Positions 114 through 5,080 of a stretch of 64,000 nt of DNA are shown piece after piece. Position 1 is the first letter of the stretch. Each line of letters opens with the position of its first letter. Source of the DNA: Pedobacter kyungheensis. GTDB lineage: Bacteria; Bacteroidota; Bacteroidia; Sphingobacteriales; Sphingobacteriaceae. Where the stretch lies: positions 124,001-188,000 of the forward strand of contig NZ_JSYN01000002.1 of assembly GCF_000812965.1 (NCBI RefSeq). Reading direction: 5' to 3'. The notes below the pieces were generated by a model. The model was not told where the DNA came from. It did no database searches and was given only the letters and a program-made list of their open reading frames with translations. A program made the translations under genes and the position numbers.

Positions 114-764
114 CTACTTTTTGTATTCTGCCAGTAAAACCGGGATGTCTTTCTTTAATTGCTCAACCTGGTCTTCTTTGGTGCCATCGTAAGCGCCACG
201 AATCCGACGGTCTTTGTCGATTAAAACCAGATACCCCTGGTGAATGTAGCCATCTTTAGCCGTGCTGTCTTCACCAACCGCCACCAGGTAATTTTTTTCG
301 GCCAAAGTATAAACACTGTCTTTGGTACCATAGAGAAACTGCCATTTCGGACCATCAACGCCTAGTTTTTTTGCGTATTTTTTTAAGGCTGAAGGTTTGT
401 CGTATTTAAAATCAATAGTGTGCGAAACAAACATCACATCGGGGTTGCTTTTAAAATCGTTGTAAACCGTCATTAAGTTGCGGTGCATGGTAGGGCAGAT
501 GGTGGTGCAGGAAGTGAAAAAGAAATCGGCCACATATATTTTTCCGTCTGTTGCTTTATTGGTTGTTAAAACACTATCCTGGTTTAAGAAAGCCCAGTTG
601 GGAATGGTTTGATAAACTGTATCAATTTTTTCTACCCCGGCGGCATCTTTAACTACTTCTGCATGGCGTTCGCCATAAAAAGGTAGTTTTTTTTCTTGCT
701 TACAGGCGGTAAATATAGAAACGAACAACAGGCTGGCTGCTGCATAAGAAATGATTTTATTCAT
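114..764 (-). CDS. Sco1/SenC-family copper chaperone lipoprotein
   Basis: A 216-residue thioredoxin-fold protein that, by family knowledge, delivers copper to the CuA site of cytochrome c oxidase or acts as a thiol reductase for it. The copper ligands are visible: CTTIC at residues 86-90, followed by proline, and a conserved His at about 175 in a YIHQGYLVLID stretch. The N-terminus is a lipoprotein signal with lipobox Cys21, so the protein is probably anchored facing the periplasm. It is the last gene of a same-strand run that also carries YHS, MbnP-like and MbnH-like genes, which supports a copper role. Family assignment is firm; the exact client is inferred. Confidence 0.9.
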   Translation of the reverse strand: MNKIISYAAASLLFVSIFTACKQEKKLPFYGERHAEVVKDAAGVEKIDTVYQTIPNWAFLNQDSVLTTNKATDGKIYVADFFFTSCTTICPTMHRNLMTVYNDFKSNPDVMFVSHTIDFKYDKPSALKKYAKKLGVDGPKWQFLYGTKDSVYTLAEKNYLVAVGEDSTAKDGYIHQGYLVLIDKDRRIRGAYDGTKEDQVEQLKKDIPVLLAEYKK

Positions 765-813
765 GTTTTGAATTTAAAAATGTAAATATACGATCTTAGT
801 TTGCTTGAGATAT

Positions 814-886
814 CGTCATGCTGAATTTAATTCAGCATCTCTTTAAGGTGAGGCCCTGAACCGATAGCTATCGGTTCAGGGTGACG
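814..886. repeat. Interspersed inverted repeat, CGTCATGCTGA...GTGACG type (copy A)
   Basis: The stretch begins CGTCATGCTGA and ends TTCAGGGTGACG. Inside are smaller palindromes, TGAATTTAATTCA and CCGATAGCTATCGG. It lies between the YHS and Sco genes. Related copies lie at 4494-4582, 10371-10440, 37436-37515 and 56450-56578. It looks like a REP-type intergenic element and could fold in RNA. Confidence 0.65.
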
Positions 887-893
887 AAGAGGT

Positions 894-1154
894 TTATTTC
901 TTTACAAACTTGGCCGGTTCTGCAATAAACTTCTGCTTACAGCTTTCTGAACAGAAATAGTAAGCTTCTTTATTGTAAACGGTAGTTTTTGCTGTGGCTG
1001 ATTTTATCTTCATTTTACAAACAGGATCGATCACTACTTTTTTAGCCGAATCAATCACGTTTGCTTTTTGTTTGGTGATGATTGGATTCGCATTTATTTT
1101 CAAGACAAATGTGCTTAATCCCATCAGGATAATTGCTATACTTAATTTTTTCAT
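894..1154 (-). CDS. Secreted YHS-domain metal-binding protein
   Basis: An 86-residue protein with an N-terminal signal peptide (about residues 1-22) and a YHS domain filling the C-terminal half: DPVCKM (Cys46), then YYFCSESCKQKF (Cys68 and Cys72). YHS domains are small treble-clef-like metal-binding modules found in copper and mercury handling proteins and at the ends of metal ATPases. Here the domain stands alone and is exported. It lies between the Sco gene and an uncharacterised lipoprotein gene in the copper-like cluster. The metal is not readable from sequence; copper is inferred from context. Confidence 0.82.
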   Translation of the reverse strand: MKKLSIAIILMGLSTFVLKINANPIITKQKANVIDSAKKVVIDPVCKMKIKSATAKTTVYNKEAYYFCSESCKQKFIAEPAKFVKK

Positions 1155-1261
1155 ATCTATTGTTTTATGGAAAGTCCGAAGTCGGAAGTCAGAAGTAAAT
1201 GTGCATATTCTTGCTTACCAGCTTACACCATATCTTCTGTCTCCGGTCTCCCGACCTCTGA

Positions 1262-1693
1262 CTATTTAATATTGTAAACTTTTAAAACTGAATCTGATTC
1301 GCGGGTAACCTTAATGTAACCATCTTCTACATCACGGATTTTAATCATCTGCGATTTGTAATAATCCAGGTCTTCCTGTTCGGTTTTGCCTTTAAAATCA
1401 TCTTTAAAAAAATGCATCCAATCCATCATTTTTTCATCTGCAGCATTTAAACGGGCAATTACATCACTTACTTGCTGTTTGGCAGCAGTAGAATCAGGTG
1501 ATTTTTTTAGTTTATCGGAAAGCAGCAGGGTATCGAGCTTCATTTTGTTTTTTACCACTTTTTCTCCGTCAACCATCAGCTTATCGTGGATATTTAAAAC
1601 TTCTTTACGTACTGCTTCGGCATTGGGTTCCGTTTTGCAGGAACTGAAAAGGATAGCTAAAACGCCGATTGCGGTTGTGATTTGTCTTTTCAT
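1262..1693 (-). CDS. Small helical lipoprotein, function unknown
   Basis: A 143-residue protein beginning MKRQITT with lipobox LFSSC (Cys19). I chose the ATG at 1693 because it gives a compact lipoprotein signal and sits 4 bases after the stop of the upstream barrel gene; an in-frame start 30 bases upstream would add a tail before the signal. The mature part is charged and probably all-helical, with a MMDWMHFF stretch at about residues 85-92 and coiled-coil-like heptads. I do not recognise a named domain. Tight spacing suggests co-transcription with the barrel, MbnH-like and MbnP-like genes. Confidence 0.75.
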   Translation of the reverse strand: MKRQITTAIGVLAILFSSCKTEPNAEAVRKEVLNIHDKLMVDGEKVVKNKMKLDTLLLSDKLKKSPDSTAAKQQVSDVIARLNAADEKMMDWMHFFKDDFKGKTEQEDLDYYKSQMIKIRDVEDGYIKVTRESDSVLKVYNIK

Positions 1694-1697
1694 ATTT

Positions 1698-2675
1698 TTA
1701 AAAATTATAAGTAATGCCAACATAAGCCTTGCCGGCGCTCATCGGGTGATCGGTTTCAGCTTCCCAGATATTTTTCTGTACACCTATATTTAAGGCAATG
1801 TTTTTGTAGAAAATATCGGCACCTACACCACCCATTAAATTATTCATTACATGTTCGCCGGTTTTTTGCCCTTTGTATTTTTCGCCCGCCGAATATTCGT
1901 AAAAGAACTGTGCCGAAGGCATGAATTGCCAATCTTTGCCGATACTTTGTTTGTAAAAAATATTCAGGAAACTGGTTGTACTATTGGCAATTCCCTCATC
2001 TCGGCTGTTGGTGCCATTCACTTTATATGAGGTGTTTAAACTTGCACCAAATTTACCTAATCCAACCAGGTAGTTCAGGTAAATAAAACCATCGGTACTA
2101 CCGGTTCCGGCTTGCATAAGCGAAGAATAACGGATACCAGCCGTGTTTTTGAAATCGTTTTTTCCGGTAGGTAATTTAATTCCAGCACCTGCAATAAGCT
2201 GCTGTTTAAAATCAGCATCCAGTTTTTGCATTAGATGATAACCTGCATAGACATTGATATCGCCCACACCACCAATGGTTGAGGTGTAGCCGTTATAACG
2301 TTCGCTGTTAGAAACATAAGGCAAAATGGCATTCACTTCTAATCGGTTGCCGATAAAATATTTGCCTCTTATTTCAAGTGAACGATATAATTCATAATCA
2401 CCAGGGTTACCCGCATGCCCGGTAATTGGCGCGTCCTGACTTCTGGCTGGAATAAAGAATTTTCCGCCGTTCGGAAACAAGGAATGTGATTGCCCTTCGT
2501 AACCGTTAAATGAGCGGTAGCGGTACAAGAGGCTGATGCTGTTTCGGTTATAGTAGGGGGTAATGCCCATAAAACAACCGCAAATATCGCAGGCAAAAGC
2601 CTTACTGCTGAGCAGTATGAAAGCCAAAATGAATAATTTACGATTCGCTAAATAATGTATTTTTGATAAACTCAT
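1698..2675 (-). CDS. Outer-membrane beta-barrel protein with N-terminal CDICGC motif
   Basis: A 325-residue protein with a signal peptide ending near Ala28, followed at once by CDICGCFMG (Cys29, Cys32, Cys34). The rest is a run of amphipathic beta strands with Gly/Tyr/Asn turns, ending in an aromatic residue (TYNF) as outer-membrane barrels do. It resembles transporter-type barrels annotated in Bacteroidota, but I cannot name a substrate. The Cys cluster right after cleavage could bind metal or haem, or take a lipid on Cys29. Its start lies 38 bases inside the 3' end of the di-haem gene, so the two are probably translationally coupled. Confidence 0.72.
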   Translation of the reverse strand: MSLSKIHYLANRKLFILAFILLSSKAFACDICGCFMGITPYYNRNSISLLYRYRSFNGYEGQSHSLFPNGGKFFIPARSQDAPITGHAGNPGDYELYRSLEIRGKYFIGNRLEVNAILPYVSNSERYNGYTSTIGGVGDINVYAGYHLMQKLDADFKQQLIAGAGIKLPTGKNDFKNTAGIRYSSLMQAGTGSTDGFIYLNYLVGLGKFGASLNTSYKVNGTNSRDEGIANSTTSFLNIFYKQSIGKDWQFMPSAQFFYEYSAGEKYKGQKTGEHVMNNLMGGVGADIFYKNIALNIGVQKNIWEAETDHPMSAGKAYVGITYNF

Positions 2676-3675
2676 GATCGGTTAATGTTTTTAAAAATGC
2701 TTTAATCTGCTCTTTCTGAGCACTATTTAAAGGAATGCCGCTTTTTAAGGAAGCATCCAGATTTTCAGCTGCTTTTACCCCCGAATCGTAGTGGTTTAAC
2801 ACTTCATCCAGACTGTAAAAACGACCATCGTGCATGTACGGACTAGTATATTCGATATTGCGTAAAGTGGGCACGCGGAATTTGCCAAAATCAGCTTGTA
2901 GGCTAGTAATGTGCGACCGGCCTTCATCGGCACTCAATAAATCTAAACCGTTGCTGCGATAAGAAAAATCGGTAAAAAAAGGCTCGGCATGGCAAGAACT
3001 GCACTTTTCTTTAAAAAGCGTATAACCAGCCTGCTCAGAAGCTGTAAAAACAGCCCCATTTTCTTTGCGCATTACCTGGTCATATTTCGAATTGGCCGAA
3101 ACCAGTATAGCAGTAAACTGCGTAATCGATTTTAAAATCAGTTGCGAATTGATTTCGGTTGAACCAAAAGCCTGTTTAAACATATCGGGGTATGGCGCTG
3201 TAGCTTTTAAAAAAGCAACGATGGTTTGAATATCGGTACCCATTTCGCAGGCATCGGTAATGGCATTTAAGGGCGAAGTTTCGATGTTTTTTACGCCACC
3301 ATCCCAAAAGAAGGCTTTTTGCCAGGCCAAATTAACCAAAGGAGGGGTATTGCGTTTACCCTGGCAGTTGTTTACACCATGACTCACCTTATGATCTAGT
3401 TGGGTAAAAGCAGCAAATTGCTGATGGCAACTTCCACACGAAACGCTTTTGTCGGCCGATAAGCGGGCATCGTAAAACAGCTTTTTACCCAGCGCAAAAC
3501 CAGCATTACTTAGTTTATTATCTTCGAAATTATATGCTGGTGCAGGAAAATTTGATGGAACTGTAAAGGCAATTTTTGTTTCTTGCTGGCTTACCTCATC
3601 CTCATTTTTACTGCAGGCATACATCAACGCAATGCTTAAGGCAAGCATTGCGAAGACTGCTATTTTCCTCAGCAT
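2638..3675 (-). CDS. Di-haem cytochrome c peroxidase/MauG-family lipoprotein, MbnH-like
   Basis: A 345-residue member of the CCP/MauG family with two c-type haem sites, CGSCH at residues 80-84 and CSSCH at 225-229. The N-terminus is a lipoprotein signal (lipobox around Cys21). The late stretch RVPTLRNIEYTSPYMHDGRF is typical of the family. The gene starts one base downstream of the end of an MbnP-like gene. In methanobactin loci the MbnH di-haem enzyme oxidises a Trp of MbnP to kynurenine, so this is best read as an MbnH-like partner rather than a plain peroxidase. Substrate and chemistry are inferred from this pairing. Confidence 0.88.
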   Translation of the reverse strand: MLRKIAVFAMLALSIALMYACSKNEDEVSQQETKIAFTVPSNFPAPAYNFEDNKLSNAGFALGKKLFYDARLSADKSVSCGSCHQQFAAFTQLDHKVSHGVNNCQGKRNTPPLVNLAWQKAFFWDGGVKNIETSPLNAITDACEMGTDIQTIVAFLKATAPYPDMFKQAFGSTEINSQLILKSITQFTAILVSANSKYDQVMRKENGAVFTASEQAGYTLFKEKCSSCHAEPFFTDFSYRSNGLDLLSADEGRSHITSLQADFGKFRVPTLRNIEYTSPYMHDGRFYSLDEVLNHYDSGVKAAENLDASLKSGIPLNSAQKEQIKAFLKTLTDHEFIKNTLFSES

Positions 3676-4446
3676 TTAATTGTGGATATGGTCTAAACGA
3701 AACAACCCGTTAGCATAATTATTGGCCACAATTACCGAATTTGGTCCACCCATGGTAAAATTCAGCGTAGCGAAACTTACATCGGTTTTACCGGTAAATA
3801 GCGCAGCGGCATTTACGATAAAGTGCATATTGGGTTTGCCGTCAGTCCTGATGCGCAAAGGGTTAGCTGCATTAATTTCTGTCGCAAAGGTTCTGATGGT
3901 ATTGTTGGGGTCAACCACACCTCCAATGTGGAAAGTTAGTGCATTGTTAGCCGCTGTAGATTGTGGCGAAGTACCTTCGAGTTTTACAAAAATATAACCA
4001 CTGTTCCAGGTCCAGAACATGCCATTTGCCGGATCTAAAGCACCTGTTTGGGCACCGGCAAAGTTACGGGCGTAATCTACACCAATAGTATATTCGATTT
4101 TGGTATAATCGCCGGTTGGTACATCTTTTAAAGTAATATTGGTCGATTCGGCTTTTGAAGCATCGATTAAAAAGTAGCTTTCCCGAATCAGGTAGCTGCT
4201 GCCATCGGCTTTGCTTAATTTGATGTTGCTAACATAGTATTTAAATACGTTGATTTTGAAATCTTCGCCTTTAGCGTTTTTATATGTGGTTGTATTTAAG
4301 GTTAAAGGGCTTCCGTTTACCTGGTTATCGAACTCGATTGTGAAAGTAGATTTGGTTTCGGCAGTGATTTCGTTGTTGTCTTTTTTGCAGGAAGTTAAAA
4401 GCAGGGCAGGACACAATAATGCCAATAAGTATGTTGTGATTTTCAT
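3676..4446 (-). CDS. MbnP-like copper-binding lipoprotein
   Basis: A 256-residue lipoprotein (lipobox Cys20) with the layout of the MbnP family: an N-terminal IEFDNQVNGSPL strand, the INVFKYYVSNIKL segment and the aromatic NGMFWTWNSGY motif at about residues 141-151 (Trp145, Trp147). In characterised MbnP a Trp is converted to kynurenine by MbnH and takes part in copper binding. The di-haem partner gene follows immediately on the same strand. A C-terminal LDHIHN supplies extra His ligands. Family is likely; which Trp is modified, and whether copper is bound here, is inference. Confidence 0.85.
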   Translation of the reverse strand: MKITTYLLALLCPALLLTSCKKDNNEITAETKSTFTIEFDNQVNGSPLTLNTTTYKNAKGEDFKINVFKYYVSNIKLSKADGSSYLIRESYFLIDASKAESTNITLKDVPTGDYTKIEYTIGVDYARNFAGAQTGALDPANGMFWTWNSGYIFVKLEGTSPQSTAANNALTFHIGGVVDPNNTIRTFATEINAANPLRIRTDGKPNMHFIVNAAALFTGKTDVSFATLNFTMGGPNSVIVANNYANGLFRLDHIHN

Positions 4447-4493
4447 TTTAAGAAAATGGAATAAGTAAAAAAAATGGGAATTATGAACGTAAT

Positions 4494-4582
4494 CGTCATG
4501 CTGATCCGATAACTATCGGACTTATTCTGCGTCTCAAAAAATTAAATTAATTGAGAGACACTGAAATAAATTCAGGGTGACG
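4494..4582. repeat. Interspersed inverted repeat, CGTCATGCTGA...GTGACG type (copy B)
   Basis: It opens CGTCATGCTGATCCGATAAC and closes ATTCAGGGTGACG, with an inner CCGATAACTATCGG palindrome and a GAGAC-type central part. It fills most of the gap between the small Cys-rich gene and the MbnP-like gene, and might act as a hairpin in the transcript. Confidence 0.6.
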
Positions 4583-4603
4583 TACGTACTTGAATTAAAT
4601 TAC

Positions 4604-4975
4604 TTAAACCGTTTTCGGCGGATGAAAAATGGAGATAGAAAGATCTTTAGCTGGTTTTTCCAGATAACCACTTTCTGCTTTAATAACAAAGAAAGGAATA
4701 GTATGGTTAAGTACTACAATTTTAAACTGAGGTTCAGCTTCAACAACACGTTTCAGGTTTTCCTGCGCCTGTTTATTCTTACCATCTAAATCTTTAAGCT
4801 TTTTAGCAAGGAAACATTGCCCATCGCAATGTAGCTCAGGATGAGCCTTGTTGATACAAAATACACTGGTAATGTATTCTTTGTTCATCTGATAACCCGA
4901 GTACACAATTAGCTGCATGTAACAATTGGAAATTGTACAGATCACTAAAAGATATATCAGAATTCTTTTGAACAT
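4604..4975 (-). CDS. Small Cys-rich exported or membrane-anchored protein of the copper cluster
   Basis: A 123-residue protein beginning MFKRILIYLL, with one N-terminal hydrophobic segment (about 3-20) and then FCINKAHPELHCDGQCFLAK at about residues 39-58, which carries three Cys and a His in a compact set. The tail is Lys/Glu-rich, then hydrophobic. I chose the ATG at 4975 because the extra eight upstream codons precede the signal-like segment. Similar small proteins with an ELHCxGxC motif occur next to metal genes in Bacteroidota, to my recollection, but I know no assigned function. It leads the cluster containing MbnP and MbnH, so copper handling is a reasonable guess. Confidence 0.7.
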   Translation of the reverse strand: MFKRILIYLLVICTISNCYMQLIVYSGYQMNKEYITSVFCINKAHPELHCDGQCFLAKKLKDLDGKNKQAQENLKRVVEAEPQFKIVVLNHTIPFFVIKAESGYLEKPAKDLSISIFHPPKTV

Positions 4976-5080
4976 GCGTATTGAGCTGCAAATGTACAAA
5001 CGAAATTGAAAGCCACAAAGAAAAAATATGAAACTATAGCAAGGGCTAAGATTTAATGTTTGTTTTAAACTACATAACCA

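Follow-up and report, generated by a model that had tools for sequence, protein, structure and literature searches.

The closest described relative of the gene cluster analysed here is the MbnP/MbnH pair of Methylosinus trichosporium OB3b (Protein Data Bank (PDB) entries 7l6g and 6e1c). In the solved MbnP the copper ligands are reportedly a His and a Met that lie beside a kynurenine formed from the first Trp of a WxW motif. MbnP/MbnH pairs are widespread, and their conservation extends well outside the methanobactin producers according to the excerpt of Kenney 2013 (PMC3621798); which partners they have when not in methanotrophs has not been clear. MopE/SACCP and CorA/CorB of methanotrophs likewise have a di-haem partner gene, together with a kynurenine-Cu(I) site that uses two His ligands and a role in copper acquisition (PMC3912023, excerpt). 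A separate type of copper protein is the TonB-dependent receptor represented by OprC and NosA; OprC binds copper through Cys143/Met147 and His323/Met325, and the outer-membrane entry of ionic copper in Gram-negative bacteria is otherwise poorly known (PMC8610252, excerpt).

Here we describe a cluster of seven open reading frames (ORFs) at positions 114-4975 of a 64,000-nucleotide stretch of DNA (the window) from Pedobacter kyungheensis, located within contig C12 of the 6.36 Mb host genome. All seven ORFs are on the minus strand, with transcription running from right to left, and in that order they encode a small Cys protein (CysSm), an MbnP-like lipoprotein, an MbnH-like enzyme, a probable outer-membrane β-barrel, a helical lipoprotein (HelLP), a YHS-domain protein and a Sco copper chaperone. 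The gaps between them are 157, 0, -38, 4, 107 and 129 bases, the MbnH and barrel genes overlapping by 38 bases, and an eighth gene, for a cytochrome c lipoprotein, lies 157 bases past the end of the Sco gene and just left of the window (L043:7535-7957, about -466 to -44 in window numbering). A first-pass annotation of this DNA had proposed the seven-gene cluster, and we found all seven ORFs, which also co-occur in related genomes in an arrangement that is beyond chance. It had further offered copper uptake or oxidase assembly as alternative functions; the copper idea stands, while the either/or is better replaced by two joined modules. We consider it rather probable that the cluster is an envelope cassette for both the acquisition and the delivery of copper.

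The MbnP-like lipoprotein (256 residues, 3676..4446) matches PF20243 at 3.7e-58, scoring 197 bits against a cut-off of 27, and the adjacent MbnH-like di-haem enzyme of the MauG superfamily (345 residues, 2638..3675) matches CCP_MauG at 7.5e-50, contains two CxxCH motifs and is itself a predicted lipoprotein (C21). These and the Pfam assignments of the Sco and YHS proteins all exceed the Pfam cut-offs. Both members of the pair fall below the cut-offs of the corresponding NCBIfam models (60.2 against 140 bits for TIGR04052, MbnP_like_WxW; 201.6 against 362.85 bits for TIGR04039), although TIGR04039 was still the best of the listed NCBIfam models for MbnH. When the window MbnP alone was compared with PDB sequences using phmmer, nothing was found up to E 1; however, a profile of 28 MbnP relatives retrieved 7l6g as the sole convincing sequence (E 9e-6), aligned in register at M, WxW and H. 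A match of this profile to beta-sarcoglycan had an E-value of 0.47 and was taken as chance. The predicted MbnP model (mean predicted local distance difference test (pLDDT) score 90.4) gave six Foldseek matches at E<=0.001, all of them chains of 7l6g, and superposition with VIA-align gave a Z-score of 17.9 (root-mean-square deviation 2.8, 209 residues aligned), far ahead of the next entry at Z 7.0. The structural comparison agrees with the first assignment of MbnP.

Among 126 distinct MbnP relatives with an adjacent MbnH gene, 124 retain M143, 125 W145, 125 W147 and 123 H173, and the only two Cys residues of the window protein are in its leader and its lipobox. For MbnH the best PDB match is 6e1c (2.5e-38), and among 129 distinct sequences both CxxCH motifs are present in all, C21 in 124, W124 in 120 and Y296 in 124 (F in 4, M in 1). 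Y296 aligns to a Tyr of 6e1c in the slot that we take to be that of the axial haem ligand of MauG and MbnH. Profiles, predicted fold and residues all identify this as an MbnP/MbnH pair like that of M. trichosporium; it differs from the latter in that both members are predicted lipoproteins, that MbnB is absent and that the genes are joined to those for the barrel and CysSm. The adjacency of the two genes had been recorded as 'one base apart', which is a matter of counting, since MbnP ends at 3676 and MbnH starts at 3675 with 0 bases between them. The conserved WxW suggests that Trp145 of MbnP is converted to kynurenine, and one His and one Met would be expected as copper ligands, compared with the two His of MopE/SACCP and CorA/CorB (PMC3912023, excerpt). 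Four loci (L067, L070, L071 and L074) carry two different MbnP-MbnH pairs back to back in one run, the first MbnP of L067 being broken into short ORFs and probably decayed. The P. kyungheensis genome encodes three more CCP_MauG proteins (contigs C9, C7 and C3), two of them in open frames of >620 residues, and its only MbnP lies elsewhere.

Co-occurrence had been suggested as a check on the cluster, and its core proved to be kept at every level that we sampled. PF20243 is found in 74 of the 151 genomes of the family to which the window belongs, and in 40 regions fetched from 110 listed matches the prevailing order is CysSm-MbnP-MbnH-barrel; the barrel accompanies MbnP in 37 of these, and the remaining three carry a TonB receptor instead. 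We also examined the best 79 of 350 barrel relatives, from Pedobacter, Hymenobacter, Adhaeribacter, Fulvivirga and other genera, in loci some of which are truncated by contig ends. It can be seen that in these 79 named loci, where the barrel is present by selection, MbnP (76), CysSm (74) and MbnH (72) follow in a largely constant order, with Sco in 43, cytochrome c in 43, HelLP in 41 and the optional YHS protein in 20. In a draw of 296 genomes from the phylum the barrel occurred in 68, MbnP in 78, CysSm in 119 and HelLP in 34. A comparison of the 39 strong barrel places in this draw (E <= 1e-15) with 66 MbnP places showed MbnP within 5 kb in 33 of the 39; the remaining MbnP places are on contigs other than those of the six MbnP-less barrels, or about 140 kb off (G250). 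The core CysSm-MbnP-MbnH-barrel is thus a conserved unit in Bacteroidota, often followed by HelLP, YHS, Sco and the cytochrome c lipoprotein.

The strongest clue to the function of the cassette is that its entry genes share a slot with TonB receptors, which are importers. When 18 of the 77 MbnP-less genomes of the family were searched for CysSm, 17 had it. Sixteen loci were fetched from these genomes (weak matches in G024 and G009 were left out), and in them CysSm is followed by a TonB receptor in 14, by the barrel in one (L252) and by HelLP-Sco in one (L249). The receptor follows directly in 11 of the 14, after a short doubtful ORF in L250 and L255 and after a lipoprotein in L259. Similarly, in 20 loci of the phylum draw, chosen as having CysSm with no MbnP near, the gene directly after CysSm (22 cases) encodes a receptor in 13, the barrel in 3, a second CysSm in 2, HelLP in 1 and another protein in 3. 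Locus L208 is particularly close to the window: its flanking genes, by eye those for a decarboxylase, an aspartokinase and a phosphomutase, match the window's neighbours at 69%, 75% and 71% identity, and it retains CysSm (35%), Sco (52%) and cytochrome c (47%), while a TonB receptor and a BNR lipoprotein occupy the place of MbnP-MbnH-barrel-HelLP-YHS. In L245, L246 and L251 the order is CysSm, receptor, a PepSY-like protein (by eye), HelLP and Sco, with cytochrome c in addition in L251. A BNR-repeat protein of about 400 residues after the CysSm-linked receptor was seen both in L208 (9223-10521) and in L212 (10074-11273).

We considered a strict exchange of MbnP-MbnH-barrel for the TonB receptor, and this was weakened to a shared slot in which MbnP-MbnH can stand with either. 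The exchange is not strict because CysSm, receptor and MbnP-MbnH occur together in some loci (an OprC-type receptor is directly ahead of MbnP-MbnH in L073, L122 and L123, and ahead of a CysSm-MbnP-MbnH run in L072; L049 is a further case), because the two entry modules of L108 (7057-13577) are joined as CysSm-MbnP-MbnH-barrel-CysSm-TonB receptor, and because the barrel stands beside CysSm with no MbnP-MbnH in L085-L087, L171, L172 and L252. OprC-type receptors adjoin both CysSm and MbnP-MbnH in relatives; the window cluster has no TonB receptor among its ORFs, and the barrel is in its place. The 325-residue barrel leaves no room for the plug and barrel of a TonB receptor.

Many of the receptors that share this slot carry copper-type motifs. 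Within 2.5 kb of CysSm we collected 39 receptors, 32 hand-picked as adjacent and 7 found in addition. Twelve of these have CxxxM and HxM motifs 159-198 residues apart, mostly 182-183, as in OprC, and the one OprC-type receptor that was compared with the PDB (L123) matched OprC sequences only (6 of 6 at E<=0.001). Another 17 have M-x7-HxM near the N-terminus, which falls inside the Plug domain where this could be checked (L204 and L208), and the 16 that were read letter by letter all contain a copy of the form NEQHxM. Neither motif was present in any of 16 control receptors located >2.5 kb from a CysSm. A search of the P. kyungheensis genome for the L123 receptor, made without a positive control, found nothing at E<=1e-10. 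In keeping with a shared slot, nine of ten genomes of the window's genus that have the cassette gave nothing at E<=1e-30 when searched with the L245 receptor, and the tenth gave a match at 3e-33 that is 27% identical and lacks the motif.

The product that takes the receptor's place (1698..2675) is probably an outer-membrane β-barrel; it has ACDICGC at its expected mature N-terminus, and CxxCxC is found within the first 70 residues of 110 of 121 distinct relatives (E<1e-20). Weak matches to barrel families were seen in some relatives (Phenol_MetA_deg in 3 of 24, best 3.4e-9); the barrel profile gave nothing convincing against PDB sequences, and the window barrel, like HelLP and CysSm, has no family match over the cut-off in Pfam or NCBIfam. 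The Pedobacter soli barrel is 98% identical to it. CysSm (123 residues, 4604..4975; 131 if an upstream TTG were used) has one N-terminal hydrophobic stretch, a C-x9-C-x-G-x-C motif and a C-terminal PP, and its key residues are close to invariant among 165 distinct relatives (C40 164, C50 165, C54 164, P119 165, P120 165); no consistent match was found when 27 relatives were compared with Pfam (DAN in 4, best 1.9e-5). In distant genomes of the phylum (family f17; L217, L218, L219 and L223) CysSm is ahead of a TonB receptor or a barrel relative, and the barrel relative there begins with ACAACGC behind its leader.

The second part of the cluster also lives apart from the first. HelLP (143 residues, 1262..1693) is modelled as a three-helix bundle (pLDDT 89.7), and H36, M40, M89, W92 and M93 do not vary across all 79 distinct relatives. 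Judged by the helix limits of the model, helix 1 contributes H36/M40 and helix 2 M89/W92/M93, two sets that would lie opposite one another in an antiparallel hairpin. CusF likewise uses one His, Met residues and a Trp to bind Cu(I) (PMC7558416, excerpt); however, it is a small β-barrel, so the folds are unrelated, and it was not among the PDB sequence matches of the HelLP profile, which gave nothing convincing. Foldseek found no match for the HelLP model at E<=0.001, and the top VIA-align Z-score of 12.5 falls short of the value of about 13 given by the tool as its mark for helical bundles; the relatives did not match any Pfam family consistently. CysSm and HelLP thus represent two families with invariant soft-metal residues and no consistent Pfam family. 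The Sco/SenC chaperone (216 residues, 114..764), also a lipoprotein, matches SCO1-SenC (PF02630) at 2.7e-21, and its C86xxxC90 cysteines and H175 are conserved in 18 of 18 sequences; the optional YHS-domain protein (86 residues, 894..1154) matches PF04945 at 1.8e-13. Of 21 HelLP genes fetched with no barrel nearby, 10 lie within 2.5 kb of Sco and 10 within 2.5 kb of cytochrome c, and L235, L238, L239, L241 and L242 are examples of HelLP-Sco-cytochrome c runs away from any barrel. In L220 and L221 CysSm and a barrel relative are found together with Sco and PCuAC, both of which are oxidase copper chaperones (PMC7558416, excerpt). Between a CysSm-linked receptor and HelLP, L206 (3167-4126) encodes a fusion of DJ-1/PfpI and YHS domains.

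A possible course of events for the favoured acquisition-and-delivery reading is as follows. MbnH would oxidise Trp145 of MbnP to kynurenine, which with Met143 and His173 would form a high-affinity Cu(I) site. Serving as the conduit in place of a TonB receptor, the CxxCxC barrel would let copper pass through the outer membrane to the periplasm, where its N-terminal cysteines would catch Cu(I) on the inner side and a membrane-anchored CysSm would accept it, as it may do beside TonB copper receptors in relatives. The inward direction of this flow is suggested by analogy with the importing receptors. In the delivery module HelLP, with its His-Met-Met-Trp-Met set, would carry Cu(I), and Sco together with the cytochrome c lipoprotein would load and reduce the CuA site of cytochrome oxidase. 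The presumed link to an oxidase draws on the presence of HelLP near Sco and cytochrome c away from barrels, and on L220 and L221. We put forward more tentatively, and as a possibility somewhat short of even, that this is uptake free of a TonB receptor, in which a kynurenine-Cu(I) lipoprotein made by MbnH would supply a plugless barrel with a periplasmic CxxCxC hook, evolutionarily interchangeable with OprC-like receptors, and which would include two new Cu(I) carrier families (C-x9-CxGxC and HxxxM/MxxWM).

Several observations weigh against the acquisition-and-delivery reading. MbnP is missing from the vicinity of six of the 39 strong barrel places, and at 13 of 15 loci from barrel-less MbnP places MbnP-MbnH has neither barrel nor receptor within 4 kb; MbnP-MbnH and a receptor are found together in the five loci named above, and barrel and receptor together in L046, L060, L100, L108, L168 and L184. 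CxxCxC is missing from 11 of the 121 barrel relatives, and 11 of the 21 HelLP genes lack a nearby Sco. Ten of the 39 CysSm-near receptors carry neither motif, related receptors being counted several times among the 39, and 16 controls are few. The receptor searches in the ten genomes of the window's genus lacked a positive control. The M-x7-HxM receptors are nearer to siderophore and B12 receptors than to OprC (the L251 receptor matches siderophore, B12 and other receptors in the PDB), and the L204 receptor has a PepSY_TM partner, so that iron uptake would fit too. These last points would suit a different explanation, in which MbnH-MbnP is a redox or peroxide-handling pair to which copper is incidental and the CysSm-side receptors import iron chelates, and the MbnH superfamily does include peroxidases. 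We regard this as very unlikely, given that Tyr and not Met occupies the axial-ligand slot in 124 of 129 MbnH sequences, that the copper residues of MbnP are retained, that 12 of the 39 receptors have the OprC-like motif and that Sco and PCuAC are among the neighbours.

The two other explanations that we weighed both accept copper as the substrate, and we judge each of them unlikely, to about the same degree. MbnP might serve detoxification by sequestering surplus Cu(I), with the barrel exporting copper or acting as a passive porin. Soft Cys, Met and His ligands suit resistance as well as uptake, and YHS and HMBD domains, which occur in metal resistance, are represented by the YHS protein of the cluster and by an HMBD protein beside the L204 receptor. 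On the other hand, the slot is shared with importing TonB receptors, the eight genes include no efflux ATPase, resistance-nodulation-division (RND) pump or regulator (the flanks were not exhaustively annotated), and Sco and PCuAC serve the assembly of cuproenzymes (PMC7558416, excerpt). Alternatively, the cluster could be devoted to oxidase assembly alone, with MbnP facing the periplasm as a donor to Sco, the barrel serving as an accessory porin and no dedicated uptake across the outer membrane. In many Pedobacter the cluster does end with Sco, cytochrome c and HelLP, in the numbers given above for the 79 named loci, which is in keeping with this; however, no Sco was seen in 36 of the 79, a number that includes loci truncated by contig ends, and barrel and CysSm remain together in the six loci that lack MbnP-MbnH.

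The lack of methanobactin genes around the pair had also been pointed out, and for MbnB this is correct: PF05114 was not found in the P. kyungheensis genome, whereas 2 of 14 control genomes were positive (MbnA and MbnC were not searched). A methanobactin operon was accordingly rejected for the window. In the family as a whole PF05114 is present in 13 of 151 genomes, 4 of which are among the 74 with MbnP. The absence is not unusual in itself, because the pair was already recorded outside producers by Kenney 2013 (PMC3621798, excerpt); what is new is its context in Bacteroidota. We conclude that the arrangement exists, is conserved and, within the reach of our searches, has not been described before: the literature covered, which mostly excludes subscription papers, contained no account of it, and novelty is to that extent unproven. 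Its recurrence in Bacteroidota, and the position of the barrel where copper-type receptors stand in relatives, make the cassette a concrete system that can be tested in soil bacteria amenable to culture.

The region above CysSm has the promoter core as its conserved part, judged by eye in an operator search. In the window the likely cluster promoter is a Bacteroidota-type -7 element, TACATTTG, at 4989..4996 on the minus strand with TTTG 19 bases upstream; a count by eye over 39 aligned Pedobacter-type loci found TACnTTTG ahead of CysSm in 37, and from the Bacteroidota consensus we presume it to be a promoter. The element stops 13 bases ahead of the CysSm ATG (window 4976-5019, minus strand), so the leader would be a few bases only. 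An inverted repeat, GCTGCAA..TTGCAGC, was seen by eye above CysSm in many Pedobacter, and since it is missing from the window's own promoter we propose no regulator. Palindromes resembling repetitive extragenic palindromic elements, ccgataactatcgg and ccgatagctatcgg, with gtgacg nearby, were noticed by eye between genes at about 4490-4590 and 820-890.

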